DNA of 64,000 nt from Natrialba swarupiae (GTDB taxonomy: Archaea; Halobacteriota; Halobacteria; Halobacteriales; Natrialbaceae). Positions 29,489-35,926 of the stretch are shown here, one piece after another (within the stretch, counting starts at the first letter, position 1; the number at the start of each line of letters is the position of its first letter). Both the position numbers and the translations under genes were made by a program. Below the pieces are notes generated by a model. That model was not told the origin of the DNA. It worked only from the letters and a program-made list of their open reading frames with translations, and ran no database searches. The DNA is taken from the NCBI RefSeq assembly GCF_008245225.1, contig NZ_VTAW01000012.1, positions 1 to 64,000 of the forward strand. Direction: 5' to 3'.

Positions 29489-30892
29489 TCAGCGATTATC
29501 CTCGATCGTTCCACCAGCGGTGTAACTTCCCTCGATGGTTGTTCCCCACTCGATGACAAGATCTCCGTCGGTATGGAGATCTCCCTCGATTGCGGCCTGA
29601 TCGAGGGTCGTATCACCTTCCGCGAGTACGTCTCCATGGATAGTGGCCCCCTCGACGGTCACGTCGCCGCCAGCAATAACGTCCCCGTCAATAATCGAGT
29701 CCCATCCGACGGTGAGGTCGCCTCCGGCGCTTACGTCTCCTTCGACGGTGTTTCCACCGTCCAATGAAACGTCTTCTCCGGCATCGATATCCCCGGCAAC
29801 CTCGCTTGAGTCCGCCAGTGAGACGCCACCGTCTGTTTCGATACTCCCGCCGACGACTGTCGATCCACCGACGGAAACGTCTTCTCCGGCGTCGATATCC
29901 CCGTCGATGGAACTCGAGTCGCCGGTAATAACAGCACCATCCGCCTCGATGTCACCGGCGACCTCACTCGAGTCACTGAGGTAGACGTCTCCCCCGGCCA
30001 CGATATCGCCGTCTACGGTTCCGTCCCAGCCAACTGTTACGTCATCCGCGGCCTCGATGTCGCCGTTGATCGAACTCGACTCACTGGTGGATACGGACCC
30101 ATCACTCGAGACGTCACCGTCGATCGTCGAGTCCCAGCCCATCGAGACATCGTCTCCTGCCTCGACATCGCCGCCGATGGAACTCGAGTCACCGGTCGTT
30201 ACCGTACCACCGGCGGTAACGTCACCGTCGACCGTCGACTGCCAGCCCGTCGTGACGTCTCCATCGGTCTCGATATCCCCGCCGTATGTATCTTCGTCAT
30301 CAACGTGGACGTCCCCTTCACCGTCTCCGGGCGGCCCTTCACCGTTTCCGGGCGGCCCTCCACCGTTTCCAGGTGGTCCGCCACCGTTTCCAGGTGGTCC
30401 GCCACCGTTTCCAGGGGGTCCGCCACCATCCGGGTTACAGTTGTACGTTACCGTACTGGACGTGTGGACGTCCGCTATCGTCGTCTTGTCGGCGACTGCT
30501 TGTTCGATGGTGACGTCTATACTGACGATCTCATTCTGTGGATTTCCAGGTCCGGAACAGGAGACCACGATCGGTTCTGAACCCCCGGTTTCGATCGAGG
30601 ACGGTGTCTCGACCGTCAGATCGTTGCCGGCTCCGTCGACAGTGATCTCGAGTGTATGTATGTCTGAGGGGAGATTATTTTGAAGCGTTACAATCTCAGC
30701 CTCGTCAGAATCTCCGTCGATACTGCCGTCCGAAGACGAGACACCGAGGGCGGCATTTTCGTCTGCAGCGGTACTCAGGTGAACGCCGCGATCCGCTGCA
30801 ATCGAGGAGAAGCCGTATACCGGCCCGGCCAGTACCAGCGCTCCGACGACGAGGAAAACGAGACCGAGCTTGGTTGTGGCTCCAAAGTACAT
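29489..30892 (-). CDS. Secreted TasA/DUF1102-like protein fused to an 18-residue-repeat beta-solenoid
   Basis: 467 aa in three parts. (1) An N-terminal signal or anchor segment (about 8-27), then FSSIAADRGVHLSTAADENA, which matches the start of the neighbouring TasA/DUF1102-like protein (FSTVEADRTVDLSTTGDGSA), with a beta-rich domain to about 152. (2) Five copies of GGGPPGN-type linker (156-190). (3) From residue 204 to the end, 14-15 tandem 18-residue repeats of the type GDVxAGxDVTxGxxSTID, alternating Gly-Asp turns and hydrophobic positions, as in bactofilin or polymer-forming beta-helices. Probably an extracellular rod-like protein. It follows the DUF7344 gene after 7 nt. Confidence 0.82.
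   Translation of the reverse strand: MYFGATTKLGLVFLVVGALVLAGPVYGFSSIAADRGVHLSTAADENAALGVSSSDGSIDGDSDEAEIVTLQNNLPSDIHTLEITVDGAGNDLTVETPSSIETGGSEPIVVSCSGPGNPQNEIVSIDVTIEQAVADKTTIADVHTSSTVTYNCNPDGGGPPGNGGGPPGNGGGPPGNGGGPPGNGEGPPGDGEGDVHVDDEDTYGGDIETDGDVTTGWQSTVDGDVTAGGTVTTGDSSSIGGDVEAGDDVSMGWDSTIDGDVSSDGSVSTSESSSINGDIEAADDVTVGWDGTVDGDIVAGGDVYLSDSSEVAGDIEADGAVITGDSSSIDGDIDAGEDVSVGGSTVVGGSIETDGGVSLADSSEVAGDIDAGEDVSLDGGNTVEGDVSAGGDLTVGWDSIIDGDVIAGGDVTVEGATIHGDVLAEGDTTLDQAAIEGDLHTDGDLVIEWGTTIEGSYTAGGTIEDNR
30323..30427 (-). repeat. 21-bp coding tandem repeat (GGGPPGN linker)
   Basis: Five 21-bp units encode GGGPPGN (three exact, then GEGPPGD-type variants). The central units are nearly identical at the DNA level, so the array could expand or contract. 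It separates the TasA-like head from the solenoid. Confidence 0.85.
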
Positions 30893-30899
30893 GTTCCTA

Positions 30900-31424
30900 T
30901 TACGGTGGCCGCTCCATTTCGCCGAGTCGCATCCGTCGGCTCTGGACGGCGTGAACGATCGCCGAGGCGACGAACAGCCCGACGACGGCGGTCGCCCAGC
31001 CGAGCTCGGGGATCGTCTCCGTCGGGACGACCTCGAGCCACAGTCCCGCCATCACGGCCGAAGCCACGACGGCGAGTCCGAGGTAGTACGTCCCCCACGG
31101 AATCGAGTCGCCGGGAACGACGTCGAGGTAGACGTCGAGTTCGTTCGCCTTCTCGGTGAGTTCGATCGTTCGATCGTCGAACTCGACCATCTCGGCTTCG
31201 GCGAGCGTCGGCAGGTGCGTCTGCTGGAGCGACGTGTACACCCGCTTTCGCTCCGCGGAGGTCAACTCTTCGACCTCCTTGTCGAGTTCCCAGGCGGCGA
31301 CGTGCTCCGCGAGGTCGCCGAGTTCGACGGGTTCGCCTTCCCGCTTGCAGTAGTGGATGGCGTACCGCCGTCGGTGATTACTCAACAGGTCAAAGATTTG
31401 CCCCCGATTCGAGCGTTCCCCCAT
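30900..31424 (-). CDS. DUF7344 winged-helix protein with two membrane segments
   Basis: 174 aa. Residues 1-90 form a helix-turn-helix of the DUF7344 type (FDLLSNHRRRYAIHYCKREG, then RVYTSLQQTHLPTLAEAEMV). Two membrane helices follow (TYYLGLAVVASAVMAGLWL and ATAVVGLFVASAIVHAV). This would be a membrane-tethered transcription regulator, a common haloarchaeal arrangement. The ATG at 31424 is preferred to 31481, which lies too close to the AT-rich box at 31491-31496. First gene of the transcript carrying the solenoid protein and divergent from the fibre genes, it is their likely regulator. Confidence 0.85.
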   Translation of the reverse strand: MGERSNRGQIFDLLSNHRRRYAIHYCKREGEPVELGDLAEHVAAWELDKEVEELTSAERKRVYTSLQQTHLPTLAEAEMVEFDDRTIELTEKANELDVYLDVVPGDSIPWGTYYLGLAVVASAVMAGLWLEVVPTETIPELGWATAVVGLFVASAIVHAVQSRRMRLGEMERPP

Positions 31425-31777
31425 ACGAACTGAGATACGTGTTTCATTCCGAATGTAACCGTCGCCGACAGATAAACTCATCGGCCAGCTGATATATTGT
31501 TATGTGGCTGTCAGATGATGGGTGGAAAAAACGGCTGATCGATCCGGCTCGAGTCGGAACTGCAGAACAGCCGGTTTCGGGGGCGCATCGCAGGTGTTCT
31601 CGCTCCGTGAATCGACCCAACCACCGGTTCAAACCTGGCTTGAACGACGGTATCGGCGATCTTGCGCCCGTTCTGGCTACTCAATACAAAGTGGGTGGCG
31701 TTCCTCCACTCGAGTAAGAACCGCGCCGGGTAACGGCGAACTACGGTTGCCAGCGCGGTCGTACGAGGACACTACCA
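31425..31777. other. Divergent control region of the surface-fibre locus
   Basis: 353 bp between the DUF7344 regulator (-) and the TasA-like gene (+), with no gene of its own. Leftward promoter candidates are the TATA-like ATATAT at 31491-31496 and TTTATC near 31473. Rightward no strong TATA box stands out; ACTCAATACAAAG near 31680 is the best candidate and would leave an approximately 70-nt leader. Confidence 0.5.
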
Positions 31778-32275
31778 ATGAGAATGAACAGACGCAACGT
31801 GTTGATCGGACTCGGAACCATCGTCGCCGGCGGCGGCGCAGCGCTCGGAACGGGTGCGTTCAGTACAGTGGAAGCGGACCGAACGGTCGATCTGAGCACC
31901 ACGGGCGACGGCAGCGCGCTGTTGGCGCTCGATGACGGCGGTTCCGAGTTGGTTACCGTTACCGACGACGGTGACGGACAACTCGAACTCTCCTCGGAGT
32001 CGCTCAACCAGAACGCGCTCACGCGAGCCGACGGCGCGATCGAAGTGACGAACAACGGGGAAAACGACGTCGGGTTCTCCGTTCGAGACGATAGCTTCGA
32101 CGTCCTCGATTTCGAGGTTAGCGAGGGCTCGATCGTCGGCGATCCGGAGGACCTGGACGCCGACGATACCGTTTCAGTCGATCTGGTCATCGATCTGACT
32201 GACGACGAACTCGACGACGACATCGCGGACGAGATCACGTTCGTCGCCGACGTCGACGATCACTCCACCGCCTGA
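31778..32275 (+). CDS. TasA/camelysin-like secreted protein (DUF1102-type)
   Basis: 165 aa. MNRRNVLIGLGTIVAGGGAA is a short signal segment, followed by GTGAFSTVEADRTVDLST, the arrangement seen at the mature start of SipW-processed TasA/camelysin proteins. The rest is a single acidic beta-sandwich (GAIEVTNNGENDVGFSVRDD) as in haloarchaeal DUF1102 proteins. By analogy it is a fibre subunit or surface matrix protein exported through Sec. It heads a rightward set with a CARDB protein and a SipW-like peptidase. Start could also be the ATG at 31784. Confidence 0.82.
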   Translation: MRMNRRNVLIGLGTIVAGGGAALGTGAFSTVEADRTVDLSTTGDGSALLALDDGGSELVTVTDDGDGQLELSSESLNQNALTRADGAIEVTNNGENDVGFSVRDDSFDVLDFEVSEGSIVGDPEDLDADDTVSVDLVIDLTDDELDDDIADEITFVADVDDHSTA

Positions 32276-32364
32276 TTTCGGTCACGCGGACAACATTTCG
32301 TCACCGCTCTTCACGACGAGGGTCGACCCCTGTCTACAAACCGACACCTCGTCGAGTTCCCCAG

Positions 32365-33285
32365 ATGCCGTCATCCAATACGCTACTCGTTACGACCGTC
32401 GTCTGCCTGCTCGTGGCGCTCGTCGTCCCGACAGCGGCGGTCAGCGTCGGCGAGGAGACGGCATCGGATGGCGTCGTCCTCGAGCCGACGAGCGCTCACG
32501 CCACGATCGACGACGGCGAACTCCGTCTCGATCTCGAGGCGCTCAACAGTCGGGCGACGACGGACGTCGACGGCGTCTTTGCGATCGAGATCCGCGACGA
32601 TGCGGTCGATCGAGTCTGGGTCGAGAGCGCAGTCGATGGCGTCGCCTTCTACGACAGTGACGACAGAACGACCATCGACGAGTCGACCCCGCTCGAGTTC
32701 GACGGCGGAGGATCCGCGACCGTCGGCGTCTCGATAGACACGCGCGTGGCCCAGGAGGGGACCGAGACCTTCACGATCGTCGTCGCGTACGAGGAAGAAG
32801 ACGCCGACGACGACGAAAGCACTACCGGTGGGGCCGGCGGTGCGGGCGGACCTGTCGACGACCCGATCGACGAACTCGACGAGGAGCCGGTCGCAGCGAT
32901 CGAGCAAACTGCACTCGAGGCGTCGCCGACGACGCTCGAGCCGGGGGAGACGGTGACCGTGAACGCGACCTACGAGAACGTCGGCAACGAATCGGGCGAA
33001 CACACGGTCGAGTTCGTGGCCGACGGGGCACTCGTCGCGACGGAGCCGCTCGAACTCGAACCGGGGGAGGCGGAAACGGTCACGTTCGAGTGGACGCCCG
33101 ACGAGCCGGGCACCTACGAACTCGCGGTCGACGACGTTTCGGCCGGATCGGTCGAGGTTCAGGAGCCGGCGCCGCTTTCGATCGAGAACCGGGAACTTCC
33201 GACGTCCGTGACGGCGGCGCTCGCCCCGCCGCTCGCGATCGGGCTCTCGCTCGCGTTGGTCCGTATGAAACGCCAATGGGAGTAG
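32365..33285 (+). CDS. Secreted DUF1102-like/CARDB protein with C-terminal anchor
   Basis: 306 aa. Signal peptide (residues about 7-26), then a DUF1102-like beta domain (FAIEIRDDAVDRVWVESAVD), an acidic Gly-rich linker near 150-165, and a CARDB-type domain (LEPGETVTVNATYENVGNES, then PGTYELAV). A final hydrophobic segment, SVTAALAPPLAIGLSLALV, is followed by the basic MKRQWE. The topology is an extracellular adhesin-like protein tethered by its tail. It lies between the TasA-like subunit and the signal peptidase. Confidence 0.83.
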   Translation: MPSSNTLLVTTVVCLLVALVVPTAAVSVGEETASDGVVLEPTSAHATIDDGELRLDLEALNSRATTDVDGVFAIEIRDDAVDRVWVESAVDGVAFYDSDDRTTIDESTPLEFDGGGSATVGVSIDTRVAQEGTETFTIVVAYEEEDADDDESTTGGAGGAGGPVDDPIDELDEEPVAAIEQTALEASPTTLEPGETVTVNATYENVGNESGEHTVEFVADGALVATEPLELEPGEAETVTFEWTPDEPGTYELAVDDVSAGSVEVQEPAPLSIENRELPTSVTAALAPPLAIGLSLALVRMKRQWE

Positions 33286-33443
33286 CATGAACCGCCGATG
33301 GCTGTAAGCCATCTTGCTGTGGGACGGCCGGCCGCGAGCGGATCGACTCGTTCGGCAGGTCCTTCTCCGGGCTTTATGTGCCTGTGTTTGTATCGACTAT
33401 CCACGACACGGGTGACGACCATGACGGCGTTCCGGGGGTGGCG

Positions 33444-34613
33444 ATGACGGCTCGAGCGTTTCTCGAGCGCGGGGTGACAGTCGTCATCGCACTGATCGTC
33501 GTCGCCCTCCTCGTCGGCCAGCTTCTGGGACAGCCGATCTTGCTCGGCTACGTCGCGACCGGGAGCATGGAGCCGACGATGTCCGCCGGCGACGGGTTCG
33601 TCGCGATTCCGAGCGTGGTCTCCGGCGAGGTCGAGGAAGGGGACGTCGTCGTCTACGACGCGAGGGAACTCCACGACGGCGGGCTGACGACCCATCGCGT
33701 CGTCGAGGTGACCGACGAGGGGTACGTGACCGCCGGGGATGCGAACCCGTTTACCGATCAGGACGGACCCGAGCCGCTGGTCTCGGACGGACAGATCGTC
33801 GCGACGGCCTGGCAGCCGGGCGGCGAGGTCGTCACGATTCCCCACCTCGGAACGGTCGTCATGGGCATCCAGGCGATCGCGACGACGACCATCGACGCCG
33901 TCTCCGGCGTGTTCGGCCTGACGACGGCCGCCGACTCCGACGGCGTCGGCGCGTTGCTGGTCGGCGTCGGCGTCGCGTTGCTCGGCTTCGGGTTCTTGCT
34001 CGAGGGGTTCGGCCCCAGCCGCCGGGAGACGTCCAGACGCCGCAAGCGTGAGAACGTGATCGGGTTCTGGGTCGCTGTCGGCCTCGTGTTGCTCGTCCTC
34101 ACGACGTTTGCGACCGCGGCGATGGTGATCCCGACCGGAACGACCGAGTACGGCATCGTAAGCACCGAGTCGCCGACCGACGATCCGCAGGTGATCGCAC
34201 CCGGCGAGACGAGCGATCTCACGCGGACGTCCGACAACGCGGGGTACGTCCCGGTCGTCACCGTCTACGAAGCCGAGAGCGCCGGCGTCGACATCGACCC
34301 CGGCTGGCAGACGGTCGGCATCCGCTCGAGCGCGGAGACGACGGTCTCACTCACCGCACCGGAGTCGACCGGCGAGTACACCCGACACGTGGGTGAGTAT
34401 CGATACCTCGCCGTTCTCCCGCCGTCGATACTCGTGTTCCTCCACGGCGTCCATCCGCTTCTCGCGATCGCGGCCGTCAACGGCGTCGTGGTCGGAGCCG
34501 CCGTCGTCGTGATGATCGCGCTGTTCGGCACCGGCGATTTCCGTCTGCGAAACGCTGGCGCTGACGTCCCGTTGAGGACCAGACTCGAACGAAAGCTCCG
34601 CAAGTGGCGGTGA
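33444..34613 (+). CDS. S26 signal peptidase I, Ser-His (SipW/ER) type, with extra C-terminal ectodomain
   Basis: 389 aa. A membrane segment (11-35) precedes the catalytic Ser41 (GSMEPTM), His84 (TTHRVVEV) and Asp99 (AGDAN). His in place of Lys marks the archaeal/ER/SipW subtype. The core ends near 160. Two additional membrane segments, a polar ectodomain (about 230-310) and two more C-terminal segments follow, making it about twice the length of a minimal SipW. The ATG at 33444 is chosen because the preceding 22 residues are not signal-like. It probably matures the TasA-like proteins encoded beside it. Confidence 0.88.
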   Translation: MTARAFLERGVTVVIALIVVALLVGQLLGQPILLGYVATGSMEPTMSAGDGFVAIPSVVSGEVEEGDVVVYDARELHDGGLTTHRVVEVTDEGYVTAGDANPFTDQDGPEPLVSDGQIVATAWQPGGEVVTIPHLGTVVMGIQAIATTTIDAVSGVFGLTTAADSDGVGALLVGVGVALLGFGFLLEGFGPSRRETSRRRKRENVIGFWVAVGLVLLVLTTFATAAMVIPTGTTEYGIVSTESPTDDPQVIAPGETSDLTRTSDNAGYVPVVTVYEAESAGVDIDPGWQTVGIRSSAETTVSLTAPESTGEYTRHVGEYRYLAVLPPSILVFLHGVHPLLAIAAVNGVVVGAAVVVMIALFGTGDFRLRNAGADVPLRTRLERKLRKWR

Positions 34614-34747
34614 GAGACATTCCGAACCAGTATCGTTATACTGTTCGATTCCTTGCACCAACACATACATCGTTTCGCCGACCTGTCGATTTCGAGATCC
34701 GACCTGCGACCTGACTCGGAGAGTCGGCAATCCTGGGGGTGGTAGCT

Positions 34748-35926
34748 GTGATCGATAATCCGCGTTTCGACCTGTTGCTCGCCAAACACGGGCGGTCGGT
34801 AGCGATCGCACTCGTCGTGGTTGGGATCGTCGCGTTCGTCGCCACGGGGTGGGTCGTCGCCAACCCGGAGACCCAGACTGTCTCTCAGGTCGCCGAGGAG
34901 GAGGCCGTAACCGACGTCCAAACGAGTTCCTCCGTCGTCGACGGCGGCAGCCTCTGGGAGGAGGGTGACGAACTCGCTGACAACCCCGTGTACGTGATGA
35001 ACGCCTCGCCGGAACTGAGGATCACTCCCGAGACGAGACTGGCGAACCGAACTGCCAACACACCGATCGACGACGCCGAAGTCACGCACCGACTGTTCTT
35101 CGAGTTCGAGGCGAGTCGCAACGACGAGGCGTTCTGGAACGAAACTCGCGAGGAGCTCCACGCCTCGCCCGACGTCGAGGATGGGATCGCGAGGTCGCAG
35201 ACGACGATCGACGTCGAGTCCTATCTCGAGCGTCAACAGGCTCTCGAAGAGGAGATCGGAACCGTCGGATCGATCACGCTTCGAGTGATCCTCGTGGCGG
35301 AGTACGATACCGACACCCTGGCTGGCACGCATACGGACTCGACGACGCTCGTGCTCACCGACGAGGCCTACTGGCTCGAGGAGTCGATTTCGGACGACGA
35401 CTCGGCGACGCACACGATCGGGACCCAGGAGGTTTCGGAGCCACGGAGCCCAGCACTCATCGCCGCGCTCTCGCTGCTCGGAACGCTCTCACTCGTCGGC
35501 TGTGTCCTCGTGGTTCGGCGCACGCCGGTCGACGTCGAGGCCGCCAGACGCGCGGTCCACGAACGCCGATACGCCGAGTGGATCTCGCGTGGTTCGATCC
35601 CGATGTGGGTCGGCGATCACCACATCGGACTCGACAGCCTCGAGGACGTCGTCGACGTGGCGATCGACACGAACCAGCGCGTCGTCCACGACCGACAGCG
35701 GGGACTGTTCGCGGTCGTCAACGGATCGGTCGTCTACTACTACAGCGAACGAGGGGTGTGGGAACAGACGACCTGGCCGGCGATGAATCTGGCCGCTGAT
35801 AAATCGGCTGTCGTTCCGGATCAGGTCCCACCCGTGAGCGAGCTCTCGGAGTTCGACGGCAGCGACGAGTTCGGTGGCGGTGACGAGCCTAATTTCGACG
35901 ACGAAGACGTCTGGGAACAGCTGTAG
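34748..35926 (+). CDS. DUF5305 family membrane protein
   Basis: 392 aa. Membrane segment at about 17-40, an extracellular acidic domain to about 235 (TVSQVAEEEAVTDVQTSS, PVYVMNASPELRI), a second segment near 240-258, then a cytoplasmic domain (GSIPMWVGDHHIGLDSLEDV) and an acidic tail. This is the DUF5305 arrangement, commonly adjacent to S26 peptidase/DUF1102 genes in haloarchaea. GTG at 34748 is chosen because GGGGGTGG ends 5 nt before it. An inverted repeat, CAGTAT-cgtt-ATACTG at 34628-34643, lies in the gap after the peptidase gene. Confidence 0.83.
   Translation: MIDNPRFDLLLAKHGRSVAIALVVVGIVAFVATGWVVANPETQTVSQVAEEEAVTDVQTSSSVVDGGSLWEEGDELADNPVYVMNASPELRITPETRLANRTANTPIDDAEVTHRLFFEFEASRNDEAFWNETREELHASPDVEDGIARSQTTIDVESYLERQQALEEEIGTVGSITLRVILVAEYDTDTLAGTHTDSTTLVLTDEAYWLEESISDDDSATHTIGTQEVSEPRSPALIAALSLLGTLSLVGCVLVVRRTPVDVEAARRAVHERRYAEWISRGSIPMWVGDHHIGLDSLEDVVDVAIDTNQRVVHDRQRGLFAVVNGSVVYYYSERGVWEQTTWPAMNLAADKSAVVPDQVPPVSELSEFDGSDEFGGGDEPNFDDEDVWEQL

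Follow-up and report, generated by a model that had tools for sequence, protein, structure and literature searches.

The closest described relatives of the locus presented here are the tafi, or Tat-fimbriae, of haloarchaea. As summarised in PMC12687288 from Galeva et al. (2025, iScience 28:111793), TafA is the core component of these fimbriae, which need the twin-arginine (Tat) pathway. NCBIfam lists TafC, TafE and TafF beside TafA, and the PDB entry 9P0A bears the title 'Structure of Natrinema sp. J7-2 Tafi pilus'; our use of the name tafi is based on these NCBIfam names, on that title and on the summary in PMC12687288. Two other archaeal surface structures, the Sulfolobus thread (Saci_0406) and the Pyrobaculum bundling pili, are donor-strand fibres, the thread combining Sec export with isopeptide bonds (PMC9715654). 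In the Bacillus TapA-SipW-TasA operon, TasA is assembled by donor-strand exchange and processed by SipW (PMC9674648). Lastly, halofilins are archaeal bactofilins acting in cell shape (PMC12186497).

We analysed a stretch of 64,000 nucleotides (the window) from Natrialba swarupiae (contig NZ_VTAW01000012.1, positions 1 to 64,000), in which the first-pass annotation had assigned six neighbouring genes to a single surface-fibre pathway. The comparison connects an unannotated locus of haloarchaea with a surface fibre of known structure and reveals which genes travel with the fibre.

A conserved divergent locus

Six ORFs were confirmed in the window sequence between positions 29489 and 35926, all at or very near their first annotated limits. 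The minus strand carries a 467-aa secreted two-domain protein (29489..30892), hereafter TafC-like, and a 174-aa DUF7344 winged-helix regulator (30900..31424). These face four genes on the plus strand: a 165-aa pilin of the TafE family with a Tat signal (31778..32275), a secreted, membrane-anchored CARDB protein (32365..33285), an archaeal/ER-type Ser-His signal peptidase (33444..34613, in a frame open from 33378) and a DUF5305 membrane protein with two membrane-like segments (34739..35926; Pfam E-value = 2e-47). Pfam confirms the Bactofilin, DUF7344, CARDB and DUF5305 domains among the six proteins.

This gene set is conserved as a unit. Among 121 genomes of the family, the peptidase and regulator scores fall cleanly into a close and a far group, the close group comprising 84 genomes for the peptidase (57-77% identity) and 83 for the regulator (at least 63% identity). 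Both genes occur together in 82 genomes, one occurs alone in 3 and neither is found in 36 (Fisher p = 3e-27); they share a contig in 81 genomes (median separation 3.9 kb) and are within 10 kb of each other in 79. The linkage is far beyond chance, and the unlinked distribution that would have spoken against a common pathway is not what these genomes exhibit. In the named loci of other genera the divergent arrangement of [DUF5305, peptidase, CARDB, pilin] against [DUF7344, TafC] is retained. Pilin, peptidase and DUF5305 are all present in 40 of the 42 long named loci having a regulator at least 64% identical, the two exceptions (L072 and L080) having lost the peptidase side to a contig end or to the limit of the stretch. 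More distant regulator paralogues (below about 50% identity), used as a negative control, often lack pilin, peptidase and DUF5305 in their vicinity. Fifteen of 80 related loci additionally contain a DUF7289-type protein of 900-1100 aa with a type IV pilin-like N-terminus, placed beside the pilin gene or after the TafC gene (L089:6963-9671, L073:5990-9088, L071:6323-9091 and others); the window lacks it.

The regulator is a clear DUF7344 protein (Pfam E-value = 5.5e-30), with two C-terminal membrane-like segments by hydropathy. The product of the gene at 32365 contains a CARDB domain (Pfam E-value = 3.4e-11) between a TafF-like N-terminal domain and a C-terminal membrane segment. It has no direct match to the NCBIfam TafF model; an alignment with TafF obtained with hhalign has a probability of 96.8% (E-value = 2.7e-10). 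The TafF-like N-terminal domain, together with the C-terminal membrane segment, suggests that this protein is an anchor, and it may hold the fibre at the membrane.

The first-pass annotation had also proposed a Ser-His signal peptidase, and the family models bear this out. The peptidase scores 59.3 bits against TIGR02228, above the cut-off of 51.85 (it stays under the Pfam S26 cut-off), and exhibits the motifs GSMEPT and TTHRV containing Ser63 and His106, as numbered in the 411-aa reading. Translation probably starts at 33444 (389 aa) and not at the GTG at 33378, because the relatives are commonly about 389 aa long. Beyond the catalytic part, the peptidases of these loci possess a conserved extra region of about 200 residues and further membrane segments; in the window peptidase this second region is non-catalytic and is flanked by later membrane segments. 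The extra region is missing from the 158-position archaeal signal peptidase model and could bind subunits.

A DUF1102 assignment within the locus had to be withdrawn: none of the six window proteins matches PF06510 at an E-value of 0.1 or less in the Pfam search. The DUF1102 matches of this genome sit in a more distant paralogous locus (L013; contig C95:106774-115002), which encodes a DUF7344 protein, a peptidase, a DUF5305 protein and four TafE/DUF1102-type subunits, one of which is fused to a right-handed beta-helix.

Relation to the Tafi pilus

The window pilin matches the NCBIfam TafE model with an E-value of 4.5e-36 (124.2 bits, under the cut-off of 155). In Natrinema gari, the syntenic gene (L089:5877-6521) encodes a protein identical at 215 of 215 residues to the subunit of 9P0A; its neighbour is the same CARDB protein as in the window, and it is placed likewise relative to the regulator. 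The window pilin thus corresponds in position to a subunit proven to form a fibre. The signal regions are near-identical, and 9P0A is the best match of the window pilin both in sequence (E-value = 5.4e-20) and in the fold search with its predicted structure (E-value = 3.8e-4), although the two proteins diverge beyond the N-terminal 40 residues (26% over the whole fold alignment). The fold of the window pilin weakly matches that of the Sulfolobus thread (7pnb; E-value = 0.018), and neither the thread nor the Pyrobaculum bundling pili have a detectable sequence relation to the window.

A second line of evidence comes from Haloarcula amylolytica, one locus of which (L125) encodes TafA, TafC, TafE and TafF, all above their cut-offs, beside the same types of DUF7344 regulator and peptidase, with DUF5305 adjoining the tafi genes. 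The Haloarcula tafi locus shares with the window the regulator, the peptidase, DUF5305, TafE, the TafC head and, probably, a TafF-type anchor, but has TafA and another gene order. Since the Natrinema gari gene matches 9P0A and the Haloarcula tafA/C/E/F locus has the same regulator and peptidase, we consider it highly probable that the locus is a tafi system of a Natrialbaceae type, including the assembly model set out below. The locus is ordinary in kind and well supported, and the tafi system is already published. The features that look new are the absence of TafA together with a likely main pilin of the TafE family, the solenoid-bearing TafC and a DNA element specific to the pilin gene. In a profile search no TafA was found in the genome (best score 44.8 bits for a cut-off of 190), and of 292 genomes in the class just 22 have a TafA above the cut-off. 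In such a TafA-less variant, the role of main pilin probably falls to the TafE-family protein.

The pilin has the Tat signal MRMNRR, the twin arginines being present in 40 of 41 pilin orthologues, and its cleavage is predicted between Ala27 and Phe28. The first-pass annotation had pointed to similar mature N-termini among the secreted subunits, and this holds well beyond the window: the motif [GA][FI]xxxx[AS]xR marks the mature start in 41/41 pilin and 26/26 TafC orthologues, and F28, A33 and R35 vary little or not at all in either alignment. In 9P0A, 188 of the 215 residues are resolved, a length that fits a start at Phe28, provided that nothing but the signal peptide is missing; the same residue is found in the window pilin and in the window TafC. 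The N-terminal tails of both proteins are disordered in the predicted monomers, as would fit a strand donated to a neighbouring subunit, in the manner of TasA and of threads (PMC9674648, PMC9715654). We propose that the pilin is exported folded through Tat and would then be cut after Ala27 by the peptidase of the locus, and that the freed tail (FSTVEADR...) may be inserted as a donor strand into the next subunit, giving a thin fibre of subunits joined head to tail.

The TafC-like protein and the nature of the fibre

The 467-aa protein consists of a Sec-type signal, a PapD-like Ig head, a GGGPPGN linker and a 15-coil beta-solenoid of the bactofilin type. The NCBIfam TafC model matches its N-terminal part only (E-value = 1.3e-13; 50.8 bits, cut-off 410), and Pfam Bactofilin (PF04519) matches with 84.7 bits against a cut-off of 27.9 (E-value = 5.5e-24). 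The AlphaFold model has a mean pLDDT of 86.9, rising to about 96-98 in the solenoid. The rod protein that had been added to the fibre set in the first reading is supported.

The head (residues 28-155; 30428..30811, minus strand) has the predicted mature N-terminus FSSIAADRG, with F28, A33 and R35 conserved, and two invariant cysteines (Cys112 and Cys152). It is predicted to be Ig-like, its best sub-structure matches including PapD-like chaperones such as FaeE (E-value = 5.7e-4); the fold search gave no whole-length match for the TafC model. The Gly/Pro-rich linker (residues 156-190; 30323..30427, minus strand) comprises 35 residues, with pLDDT below 50 at 157-187, and is encoded by a tandem repeat (TRF period 21, 5.4 copies at 30314-30427), the 21-bp unit of which could vary in copy number among strains. 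The solenoid (residues 191-467; 29492..30322, minus strand) is confidently predicted, has a period of 18 residues and is acidic, with 70 D/E to a single K/R.

The second domain is the variable part of the family. Pfam Bactofilin matches 8 of the 26 Natrialbaceae TafC proteins, some of the others having a different second domain and some none; a LamG domain occurs in TafC of Haloarcula, Haloferax and a genome of a further family. On the tree of the head, the solenoid label (an approximate one, assigned by Pfam and repeat motifs) requires 6 changes or more, and well-supported branches force 2 of these. Judged from these sequences, such turnover looks like what is expected of a display or adhesin position, adhesion itself being putative. 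None of the 26 Natrialbaceae TafC proteins aligned has a Tat RR signal, whereas Haloarcula TafC has one, an apparent switch of export route inside one protein family.

We infer that TafC is a tip- or base-like subunit. It would leave the cell by Sec, be cut at the equivalent site and join one end of the fibre through the same kind of tail, the flexible linker holding out the rigid acidic solenoid (roughly 7 nm), which would serve in adhesion or spacing. A bactofilin-type rod carried by a pilus outside the cell would put a cytoskeletal fold to an unexpected use.

Two other readings of these proteins deserve attention. The 467-aa protein might be a self-polymerising surface scaffold of the bactofilin type that shapes the envelope outside any fibre; it has the Pfam match and the PF04519-type beta-solenoid, and the halofilins provide a precedent in cell shape. 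However, its predicted N-terminal secretion signal, unlike a cytoskeletal protein, and its pilin-type head with the matching mature N-terminus set it apart from a cytoplasmic bactofilin: the solenoid is extracellular by its signal, extends over about 277 residues compared with the 98 positions of the Pfam domain, and is fused to the head. Besides, most relatives have the gene next to the regulator of the fibre locus, and most orthologues lack the solenoid or have something else in its place, so that it cannot be the core function. We regard a scaffold of this kind as improbable. More improbable still is a true TapA-SipW-TasA system, either moved into haloarchaea or common to them. The first-pass annotation had likened the locus to such a system. 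In favour of it, a dedicated ER-type signal peptidase accompanies secreted subunits of beta-sandwich type whose mature N-termini are similar, and the donor-strand assembly of TasA and its processing by SipW follow the same logic (PMC9674648). Yet PF12389 (TasA/camelysin) has no match in the genome, the SipW model NF046067 reaches 37.9 bits for a cut-off of 190, no TapA match was obtained among the six proteins in Pfam and NCBIfam searches, and the pilin signal is Tat and not Sec; in the fold search the Tafi pilus ranks first and TasA is outside the 50 best pilin matches. What stands of that comparison is a dedicated signal peptidase in a surface-fibre locus; the TasA, TapA and SipW labels are dropped, and membership of the TasA family is rejected on the PF12389 and SipW results. 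The TasA analogy probably describes how the tafi locus works, not the family to which it belongs.

The element preceding the pilin gene

The pilin gene is preceded by an element of the form TTCTGGC-N5-AATACAAAGTGGGT (also written TTCTGGC-N5-AATACAAAGTGGGTGG), located 33-101 nt before the start codon; the window copy, TTCTGGCTACTCAATACAAAGTGGGTGG, is at 31671..31698 on the plus strand. Allowing up to 3 mismatches, it was found before 34 of 50 pilin genes but in only 2 of 1000 random 300-bp stretches, and its core is practically invariant across 40 aligned sites, both figures being partly circular, as the pattern was derived from the same upstream regions. A genome search depends less on those regions: it returned 73 sites in 69 of the 121 genomes, against 0 for a reversed control pattern. 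Sixty-eight of these sites are no more than 12 kb from the locus peptidase, upstream of it and on its strand without exception, and the remaining 5 are next to TafE-like pilin genes that lie elsewhere or on a split contig. In the window genome there is one good copy; that copy scores 48.4 bits by the position weight matrix, the runner-up in the 64 kb scoring 0.25.

The element might act as an RNA leader rather than at the DNA level, a view encouraged by its position 33-101 nt before the start codon and by a hairpin that the window copy can form. It is, however, an unlikely one: folding is not exceptional (z = -1.56), Rfam yields no match, the start codon follows at distances that differ threefold, and conservation on the 3' side of the hairpin is poor by eye. 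Given the varying distance to the gene and the unexceptional folding, a promoter or operator is the more likely function, and the element is probably the switch of the fibre gene. A bacterial promoter/terminator scan, unsuited to archaea, gave chance-level results. By its position, the membrane-tethered DUF7344 protein is a candidate binder and may control expression, probably through this element.

We lean, by a small margin, towards a broader reading: many Natrialbaceae tafi would be TafA-less, having a shaft of the TafE family, an end subunit with an exchangeable C-terminal domain, and a dedicated single-site promoter or operator whose invariant AATACAAAG core stands almost only before the pilin gene. 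If so, the end subunit with its pilin-type head would resemble the two-domain adhesins of bacterial pili, its C-terminal domain being a bactofilin solenoid, a lectin-like LamG domain, another domain or none. The parts of the locus that can be tested directly are the subunit with exchangeable domains, a candidate for the fibre end or for an adhesin, the one-pathway peptidase, and the near-unique DNA element as a possible switch. The AATACAAAG element, which most Natrialbaceae loci share, was not found in loci of the Haloarcula type or in the C95 paralogue; it is also present in the Haloferax and Halobellus loci.
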